Shown: positions 60,922-62,904 of the stretch, piece by piece
Numbering within the stretch: the stretch's first letter is position 1
Layout: the number at the start of each line of letters is the position of its first letter
Assembly (NCBI GenBank): GCA_029265355.1
Contig: JAJUJL010000003.1
Location: 124,001-188,000 of the forward strand
From: Chloroflexota bacterium
GTDB taxonomy: Bacteria > Chloroflexota > Anaerolineae > Anaerolineales > UBA4823
DNA: 64,000 nt
Direction of reading: 5' to 3'
The notes under the pieces: generated by a model
Database searches by the model: none
What the model was told of the DNA's origin: nothing
The model's input: the letters and a program-made list of their open reading frames with translations, nothing else
Translations under genes and position numbers: made by a program

Positions 60922-61530
60922 ATGGCAGCCTACCTGTCTATTGGGACAAAATTACGCACGATACGAGATGAACGCAAACTATCGCAGCGGGAGCTAGCGC
61001 AGAAAGCAGGGATCTCTCCAAACGCCATCAGCCTGATCGAGAGGGATGAAAGTTCTCCAAGCGTGGCCACATTGCAGAGTCTAGCGACCGCGCTCAATGT
61101 CAAAATAAGTTACTTCTTCGACGATGAAACTCCACAGCATGTGCTGCATGTGAAAGCAGGGGAGCGACCCATGATCAGCAGCAATGGGGTCAAGATCGAG
61201 GGAATTGGAGGGGAACTCTCCCGGCAGGAGATCGAACCATTCCAGATCACCCTGGCGCCGAATTCCCACAGCGGAGACCGGCAAGTGGTTCACACCGGTC
61301 ACGAATTCGTCTACTGTCTGAAGGGCAACGTGGAATATATTATCGATGGGGTGGTGCACATGCTCTCACCCGGTGACTTTTTGATGTTCGAAGCGCACCT
61401 GCCACACACCTGGCGCAACACCTCGCAGGACGAAGCGCAGTTCCTGCTGGTATTGCAAACCCCTGGCCAATCCCCTGACCCCGTGCAAAGGCATTTTTCG
61501 AGCTACCCTTCGCTGTATCACTTGGGCTGA
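60922..61530 (+). CDS. XRE-family regulator with C-terminal cupin domain
   Basis: A 202-residue paralogue of the regulator at 60212. The helix-turn-helix contains RELAQKAGISPNAISLIER, sharing SPNAISLIER with the neighbour, so both may read related operators. The cupin part (EFVYCLKGNVEYIID, MLSPGDFLMFEAHLPHTWRN) keeps the usual His/Glu pattern. PuuR/SutR-like domain order. Its 3' end overlaps the convergent recombinase gene by 13 bp. Confidence 0.9.
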   Translation: MAAYLSIGTKLRTIRDERKLSQRELAQKAGISPNAISLIERDESSPSVATLQSLATALNVKISYFFDDETPQHVLHVKAGERPMISSNGVKIEGIGGELSRQEIEPFQITLAPNSHSGDRQVVHTGHEFVYCLKGNVEYIIDGVVHMLSPGDFLMFEAHLPHTWRNTSQDEAQFLLVLQTPGQSPDPVQRHFSSYPSLYHLG

Positions 61531-62522
61531 TCGAAGATCTCTGAATAACCTTCATCCAGCTCGTCATCGCTCAAATGGGCGTAGCGCTGCGTCACAGCGA
61601 TGTTCTTGTGCCGGGCCAGTTCCTGAGCCAGCTTGAGATTGCCACCTGAGCCGCGCAGCACGGTGGTGACGAAGTAATGGCGGAAGGAATGGGGTGTGAT
61701 AGCGTCCGTCGTTTCGCTGCCCAGGGCTTCATGCACACGCTGGTCGACAATGTTGCGCCCGGTAGCGGTGGTGATAGGCTTGACCTTCTTGCCAGCGCCC
61801 TTGTCGTGGCGAGCAAAGAGCGGCAGGGAAGGGAGCGGGCGACCGCTGGCGCCATCCAGGCGGGCGCGGGCGTTGAGGTAATCGCGCAGCGCGGAGAGCG
61901 AGCGCCGAGAGAAGCGCACAACTGCCTGTTTATCGCCCTTGCCAATGATCACAGCGCGTCCTTCGTTCCAGTCGATATCACCGCGCCTCAGGTTGCAGGC
62001 TTCGTGAACACGCAGCCCGGTATCAGCCAGGGTGAGCAAGAAAGCCCGGTCGCGCAGTTTGCGCAGGCGGTCAGGCTCACTGTCAGCCGGCATTAATTGC
62101 ATATTCATTGCATATTGCAATATAATATCAATTTCATTGCGCGGAAATTGCGGCAAGCGCACACCAGGACGCCGCGAACGCTGGCGAACCAACAAGCGCA
62201 CCCGGGGCAAATTGATTTCCGCCAGGTCCTCGGCTGCGAGATACTCATAGAAGAGCGTGGCGGCGGTCATGTACAGGCGCTCGGTGGCGGGAGAAAGGCC
62301 TTTCAGGGCAGCGGCAAACCAGGCGATGCCATCTTCGGAAAGATCAGTCACAGGGTCATGCCTGGGGGAGAGGCCATGCTGGGCGAGGACCTGTTGAAAG
62401 AATTCCATTGCCACGCGATACATGCGCGTGGTGCTTTCGCTGCGCGCCAGCTCAACGCTTCGCAGGAACGAAACGATGGCAGAGGCGATAGGGGGATGAT
62501 TCGTAGCGGTGGGGGGCGTCAT
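61518..62522 (-). CDS. Xer-type tyrosine recombinase
   Basis: A 334-residue integrase/recombinase. Residues 10-110 are the SAM-like core-binding domain; the catalytic domain has Arg171 (TGLRVHEA), Lys198 (GKGDK), His278-x2-Arg281 (PHSFRHY), His305 (ARHKNIA) and the nucleophile Tyr314 (TQRYAHLS). Length and spacing fit XerC/XerD-like enzymes rather than phage integrases with arm-binding domains. No transposon or phage genes lie nearby. A dif-like palindrome begins 23 bp upstream of the start codon. It could be the host's dimer-resolution recombinase or a domesticated element integrase. Confidence 0.92.
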   Translation of the reverse strand: MTPPTATNHPPIASAIVSFLRSVELARSESTTRMYRVAMEFFQQVLAQHGLSPRHDPVTDLSEDGIAWFAAALKGLSPATERLYMTAATLFYEYLAAEDLAEINLPRVRLLVRQRSRRPGVRLPQFPRNEIDIILQYAMNMQLMPADSEPDRLRKLRDRAFLLTLADTGLRVHEACNLRRGDIDWNEGRAVIIGKGDKQAVVRFSRRSLSALRDYLNARARLDGASGRPLPSLPLFARHDKGAGKKVKPITTATGRNIVDQRVHEALGSETTDAITPHSFRHYFVTTVLRGSGGNLKLAQELARHKNIAVTQRYAHLSDDELDEGYSEIFDQPK

Positions 62523-62545
62523 CGGCTATTTTCTCTCGGCATTTA

Positions 62546-62575
62546 TGCTTTTGATAATGATACTTATCAAAAGCA
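62546..62575. repeat. dif-like palindrome: 12-bp perfect arms, 6-bp centre
   Basis: TGCTTTTGATAA, then TGATAC, then TTATCAAAAGCA. Two perfect inverted arms separated by 6 bp, the geometry of Xer core sites; the inner ATAA-N6-TTAT is the same as in E. coli dif. It lies just upstream of a Xer-type recombinase gene. An operator function for that gene is the alternative. Confidence 0.65.
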
Positions 62576-62904
62576 TTATTGAGCTTATTGTAGCAGAGCC
62601 CCCTGCTCCTGTCAATAAGCACTTTTAGCGCCAGAATCGTCTACCTGTGTTTGCGCGCCGTCACTCTGGAGGGATCTTGGCGCTTTGCTTCCTCAGATGT
62701 GCAGATCGGCAAATCAATCGCCGGGACTCCCCACCCCTGCTCGCCCGGATTGCCAGCCAGGATGCTTCCGTAGCCCATTTGCGGCAATGCCCCATCCAAA
62801 GGCATAGATTAATATTGGATTAGTTTTGTCTTATTTATACTTTCCGACACATCCAGGAGGGGTCGAAATGCGTAACCAAGGGTTAGAAAGAAAGGAGAGC
62901 GATA
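62576..62904. other. Non-coding gap with nested hairpin and CHRD-gene promoter
   Basis: At 62583-62620 GCTTATTG and CAATAAGC enclose AGCAG/CTGCT around AGCCCC, a long imperfect hairpin. The GC-rich middle (62630-62800) shows nothing I can identify. TATACT at 62836-62841 is the likely -10 for the CHRD gene, and AAGGAG at 62893-62898 its ribosome-binding site. Confidence 0.5.

Follow-up and report, generated by a model that had tools for sequence, protein, structure and literature searches.

A putative chromosome dif site beside the gene of a single Xer recombinase in an order of Chloroflexota

The palindrome and the adjacent recombinase gene

The window (the whole stretch of DNA analysed here, 64,000 nucleotides from a Chloroflexota bacterium) contains a gene for a Xer-type tyrosine recombinase of 334 aa (61518..62522, minus strand), which matches Pfam Phage_integrase at 7.1e-28 and has an invariant catalytic set. 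The end of this gene overlaps by 13 bp, tail to tail, a plus-strand gene for an HTH-cupin regulator (60922-61530). Upstream of the recombinase gene lies a dif-like recombination core site (62546..62575), which reads TGCTTTTGATAA-TGATAC-TTATCAAAAGCA on the plus strand and TGCTTTTGATAA GTATCA TTATCAAAAGCA on the minus strand, the latter being the common orientation in the family described below. In this orientation, the left arm occupies 62564-62575, the centre 62558-62563 and the right arm 62546-62557, and the pairing extends by one outer A/T pair, giving 13-bp arms (62545-62576). An earlier note on this DNA had described two perfect 12-bp inverted arms around a 6-bp centre, the inner ATAA/TTAT of dif, and a recombinase gene starting 23 bp away; reading of the sequence and of the ORF bore out this description.

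The palindrome occurs once in the window at up to three mismatches, and never in 100 shuffles. A search for further copies, suggested in the same note, found it single in the 5.05-Mb genome at the same tolerance. It should be noted that the window holds two perfect 12-6-12 inverted repeats (the second lies elsewhere within 1-64000), so that the bare palindrome is less special; 60 first-order Markov copies of the window contained none with gaps of 4-8. That the palindrome is beyond chance follows from its conservation in 74 of 81 loci (see below).

A sigma-70-type promoter of the recombinase gene is predicted at 62587..62615 (minus strand) from its consensus match (TTGACA, 17, TACAAT, with TG before the second hexamer). 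From this promoter, transcription would be expected to start shortly before the site.

The catalytic residues of the window recombinase (R171, K195, H278, R281, H305 and Y314) all fall in invariant columns among 29 aligned orthologues, and align with R148, K172, H244, R247, H270 and Y279 of E. coli XerD. The best-scoring family models were XerC (125 of 335 bits), XerA (NF040815, 117 of 220 bits) and XerD (109 of 330 bits), each far below its cut-off, which for XerC and XerD is the equivalog cut-off; the XerS model (NF003462) gave 57 of 267 bits, also below the cut-off. On these scores, membership of the XerS, XerC, XerD and XerA families was rejected. XerH is a distant PDB match (E 4.5e-4 with the single sequence, 5.6e-11 by profile), and the family models matched included none for XerH. 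An AlphaFold model of the protein had a mean pLDDT of 85.8 and a pTM of 0.61, so that, despite the good local confidence, neither the arrangement of the domains nor the region around the tyrosine is sure. The best structural matches of the model were XerA structures (4a8e, Z 18.0; 5hxy, Z 17.9).

Conservation of the site upstream of the gene

From a scan of GTDB genomes, the best 80 of 138 relatives were kept, with ~60-72% identity to the window recombinase; their titles are nearly all Anaerolineae, Anaerolineales, Anaerolineaceae or Chloroflexi. Sites were located by a weight matrix that was seeded from the sites upstream of the relatives and refined on its own matches. A site was present upstream of the recombinase gene in 74 of the 81 loci (the window and the 80 relatives), in one orientation throughout. 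The distance to the gene, measured from the start of the match, ranged from 12 to 1584 bp over the 74 loci, and in most loci the site was within ~130 bp of the gene start. The weight matrix revealed no second site in any locus over 3.39 Mb. There is likewise one site in the genome of Longilinea, and in Pelolinea a loose pattern matches four places, of which only the gene-adjacent one fits the inner arms of the family.

No site was found by the weight matrix in the other seven loci (L020, L044, L049, L050, L071, L074 and L080). In L071 and L074 the sequence leaves only 67 and 353 bases ahead of the gene, and that of L050 is masked inside the site. L020, L044, L049 and L080 leave room for a site, and none is present in the adjoining DNA examined; for L044, there was no convincing site elsewhere in the bin either. 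The genome of L049 holds two sites with identical arms and different centres (L239:2802 and L240:3278), both off the contig of the recombinase gene, which suggests an integrated element, a mixture of strains or a mixture of bins. A further bin contains two recombinase genes (L241 and L038), each with its own site type (GATAA and CTTAA), and is perhaps a chimeric MAG.

Arm pairs 2, 4, 10, 11 and 12 are symmetric in all 74 sites. Full symmetry is rare, with 12 of 12 pairs in eight sites, while 53 of the 74 sites have 9 or 10 symmetric pairs. The left arm is steadier than the right (at pair 8, G in 66/74 left arms, C in 55/74 right arms), and the commonest centre is GTATTA (26/74 sites).

Position relative to the replication terminus

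The earlier note had also proposed a plot of GC skew, and an inversion of the skew was indeed found near the site. In the contig of the window (329 kb), the skew is positive up to the site region and mostly negative beyond ~210 kb; the cumulative skew peaks at 210,347, 24 kb from the site (186,546). Pelolinea submarina, whose chromosome is complete, has the site at 2,044,154, 209 degrees from dnaA (at 1 kb); within the 400 kb read, the skew maximum is at 2,055,557, 11 kb away from the site. In Longilinea, sampled coarsely, the skew has opposite signs in the samples at 2.70 and 2.91 Mb, which flank the site at 2.785 Mb. Contrary skew samples were met in Pelolinea near the origin and at 0.89 Mb, and in Longilinea at 1.46 Mb. 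In all three of these informative genomes, the common orientation of the site is on the minus strand, where the skew drops from plus to minus. Skew was uninformative in two of the five genomes examined, the MAG pseudo-chromosomes CP070764 and CP070639, which show no coherent skew anywhere and neither support nor oppose a terminus position; CP070639 also gave no full DnaA match.

One enzyme apparently in the place of XerC and XerD

Separate xerC and xerD genes and a canonical dif elsewhere, which the earlier note had named as evidence against its reading, were looked for. None of the 17 tyrosine recombinase matches in the genome of the window reached the XerC equivalog cut-off, the best of them scoring 187 of 335 bits, and the same genome contained no XerD-family match at E<=1e-70. 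A generic XerCD-type dif pattern was not matched exactly in any of three genomes, and with one mismatch allowed it matched there about as often as a control pattern did.

The distribution of the two enzymes was compared in 151 Chloroflexota genomes, with thresholds of E<=1e-40 for the window enzyme and E<=1e-70 for XerD-type proteins. The window enzyme was found in 12 of the 151 genomes, all of the same order, which we infer from the titles of the relatives to be Anaerolineales; they are 12 of the 13 same-order genomes, that of the window included, and in two of them the identity is only 44-45%. XerD-type matches were present in 103 of the 151 genomes, namely in none of the 13 same-order genomes, in all six from other orders of the class and in 97 of the remaining 132. 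In this sample the two types exclude each other (Fisher p 3.7e-7, relatedness ignored), and the window enzyme stands where other genomes have XerD-type proteins. The thirteenth same-order genome (G113) has neither the window enzyme at E<=1e-40 nor a XerD match.

PF00589 proteins were clustered in seven genomes, covering 16 of 16 in the genome of the window, 24 of 24 in five relatives and 6 of 8 (those with loci) in a sixth; a 17th recombinase of the window's genome, found only by the XerC model, was omitted. The window family was the only one both catalytically intact and present in all seven. The FtsK gamma domain is encoded twice in each of five genomes (5/5). Judging from these sequence data, the window enzyme appears to take the place of the customary XerC/XerD pair in the order. 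In the genome of the window, several neighbouring tyrosine recombinase matches are clustered at C25:2062-8541, probably a mobile recombinase cluster.

Matched changes of arms and enzyme

In eight of the 74 loci both arms have changed from GATAA to CTTAA, the switched sites reading CTTAA / TTAA[T,G] instead of GATAA / TTA[T,C,A]. The enzymes have changed with them: D or E at residue 33 together with F or Y at residue 37 occurs in 8/8 CTTAA loci and in 0/66 of the others, and no other alignment column fully separates the two site types. Both residues (codons 33-37 at 62412..62426 of the window, minus strand) belong to the second helix (29-48) of the predicted N-terminal domain. In a tree built without window columns 27-40, the switch arose twice, on supported branches, once in L038 and once in the clade L061 to L096. 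Two switches are too few for the association between site and enzyme to become significant in a test by independent pairs (p 0.5). In XerH, N-terminal helices are described as contacting the inner 5 bp of each arm (PMC5241119), i.e. the same part of the site and of the protein as switched here.

Look-alike sites in viral contigs

The pattern TGNTTNNGATAANTANNATTATCNNAANCA had exact matches in seven IMG/VR contigs, six of them distinct. Of two control patterns, the scrambled one had no matches in viral contigs and the reversed one had four, and this makes the bare count of seven weak. However, the positions that the pattern leaves unspecified are more telling, as five of the six distinct viral sites score like host sites there (p 0.003 to 0.03 each), and the site of L310 does not (p 0.44). 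No CTTAA-type site was matched in the viral contigs.

Among the look-alike contigs L305, L306, L307, L308, L309 and L311, several have their site among head and packaging genes. Their neighbours are terminase and portal genes in L309 and a major head protein gene in L306; in L308, a head maturation protease is further from the site. The viral contig DNA examined does not encode the window enzyme, and L310 carries a distantly related integrase beside a similar site. Integrative elements that use host Xer by mimicking dif are known (PMC9765430). By analogy with them, dif mimicry would be the likeliest explanation of the viral look-alikes, and the contigs may belong to phages that make use of the Xer enzyme of their host.

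Separation of the site from the gene

The site is not always next to the recombinase gene. In the genome of L080, site and gene share a contig but are 68 kb apart (site at G011:C1:287394, gene at 218813-219772), the site being in an intergenic region between what we take, from the translations, to be a phosphatase-like and a transporter-like gene. In Longilinea, another gene, presumably VIT1-like as read from its translation, intervenes between site and recombinase gene.

These cases bear on the possibility that the palindrome is only an operator for autoregulation, a sequence in the 5' UTR to which the recombinase or another repressor binds, with no recombination taking place there. Such a role would agree with the strong promoter predicted immediately before the site and with the closeness of the site to the gene start in most loci. 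However, the site is kept 68 kb away from the gene in one genome and past an intervening gene in Longilinea, so it is most probably more than an operator. Its location at the skew inversion and its presence in viral contigs, in whose examined DNA the gene of the window enzyme is missing, also speak against this explanation, which we regard as very unlikely. Since the site also falls in the predicted 5' UTR, the bound enzyme may in addition repress its own gene, so that autoregulation may, judging by sequence, come on top of recombination.

A conserved paralogue devoid of catalytic residues

A second conserved protein with the tyrosine-recombinase fold is encoded in the genome of the window at C29:122117-123019 (L017, L276), with copies collected as L275-L304. 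None of the 30 copies examined retains the catalytic arginine I, either of the histidines or the tyrosine. The paralogue is present in 13/13 same-order genomes and in 5/6 genomes of other orders of the class; it was recovered in six of the seven clustered genomes and, by a separate search, in the seventh as well. In Longilinea and Pelolinea, its gene adjoins genes that we take from their translations to be tilS-like and LCP-like.

Its constant presence in the order, together with the greater constancy of the left arm of the site, could be explained by a two-protein Xer system, in which the catalytically dead paralogue occupies one arm or regulates the reaction. This is nevertheless highly unlikely. 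Catalysis is lost in every copy examined, both arms switch together with one enzyme, and the paralogue is also found in the genomes of other orders, which have XerD-type enzymes, so that it does not track the palindromic site. A related scenario, in our opinion improbable, is that the order swapped XerC/XerD for one Xer, whose specificity switched twice with dif, and that the pseudo-recombinase is a working part which occupies or gates the weaker dif arm; if this were true, dif look-alikes would let tailed phages use this machinery too.

Finally, it is extremely improbable that the gene is the integrase of a mobile element and the palindrome its attP or attR: the gene does belong to the Phage_integrase family, and a distantly related integrase does lie next to a similar site in the viral contig L310, but the identity of the orthologues (~60-72% in the best 80 of 138 relatives), the occurrence of the enzyme in 12/13 same-order genomes, the single genome copy of the site and its terminus position argue against it. 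Rather, the data point to vertical inheritance at a fixed chromosomal place.

A probable chromosome dif with one recombinase

Xer enzymes bind their site as two monomers, bring two sites together in a synapse and exchange strands at the centre; at the septum they resolve chromosome dimers with FtsK. The most probable reading, to which we assign a probability of about 0.86, is that the palindrome is the chromosome dif of this bacterium, cut by the one Xer recombinase encoded beside it. Two monomers of this enzyme would bind the two near-identical arms, the two dif sites of a chromosome dimer would be brought into synapsis at the division septum, and strand exchange across the 6-bp centre by four monomers, all of this one enzyme, would resolve the dimer. 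FtsK proteins with the gamma domain would probably load or trigger the reaction.

The locus shares the general features of single-recombinase dif/Xer systems, i.e. a site in the 28-31 bp range with two inverted arms of ~11 bp around a short centre, one per chromosome and at the terminus, an enzyme with the R-K-H-R-H-Y set, and no second intact conserved recombinase. Such systems are described for a handful of lineages, with XerS, XerH, XerL and archaeal XerA (PMC5357621, PMC9765430), and by analogy the system would work like XerS/difSL, XerH/difH and XerL/dif.

The earlier note had compared the locus with XerS/difSL of streptococci and lactococci, where one recombinase acts on both arms of a site beside its gene (PMC5357621). 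The comparison holds for the layout, with one recombinase, a gene-adjacent site and, presumably, a single enzyme for both arms; it does not extend to family membership, as the XerS score reported above indicates. In addition, difSL is described as 31 bp long, its arms being unequal and its centre 11 bp (PMC5357621), whereas the centre here is of 6 bp and the arms are equal. XerH/difH of Helicobacter and Campylobacter also combines one recombinase with a site near its gene (PMC5357621), but difH has an inserted base pair in one arm, in contrast to the equal 12-bp arms found here, and XerH is only distantly similar in sequence to the window enzyme.

XerL/dif of Legionellales, compared here by description only, resembles the present system in its one recombinase and in having long inverted arms without interruption (10 and 12 bp), but in L. 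pneumophila dif is more than 400 kb from the gene (PMC9765430). Archaeal XerA/dif has one recombinase and a 28-bp site that is sometimes gene-adjacent (PMC5357621), and XerA provides the best structural matches; XerA is, however, described as FtsK-independent (PMC5357621), whereas FtsK gamma domains are encoded here. With XerC/XerD/dif, the site has in common the layout of 11-12 and 6 bp and the inner ATAA/TTAT, and it differs in its nearly symmetric arms and in the lack of a second intact partner.

A search of the literature other than subscription papers and preprints turned up no dif/Xer system described for Anaerolineae. A XerCD-type dif was predicted for three Dehalococcoides genomes by Kono (2011), the sole Chloroflexi in the table of that paper (PMC3025954). 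The present analysis would add an order of Chloroflexota to the lineages with a single-enzyme dif/Xer system, in a phylum represented in that work by three genomes. The site could serve as a sequence marker of the replication terminus in MAGs, which are often fragmented, and it is a likely entry point for phages of these bacteria. Furthermore, the natural enzyme-site pairs, in which the inner arms have switched twice along with two helix residues, make a Xer specificity code directly testable. One prediction is already available, because the enzyme of L074, a locus truncated 353 bases before the gene, has E33 and F37, which predicts a site of the CTTAA type.
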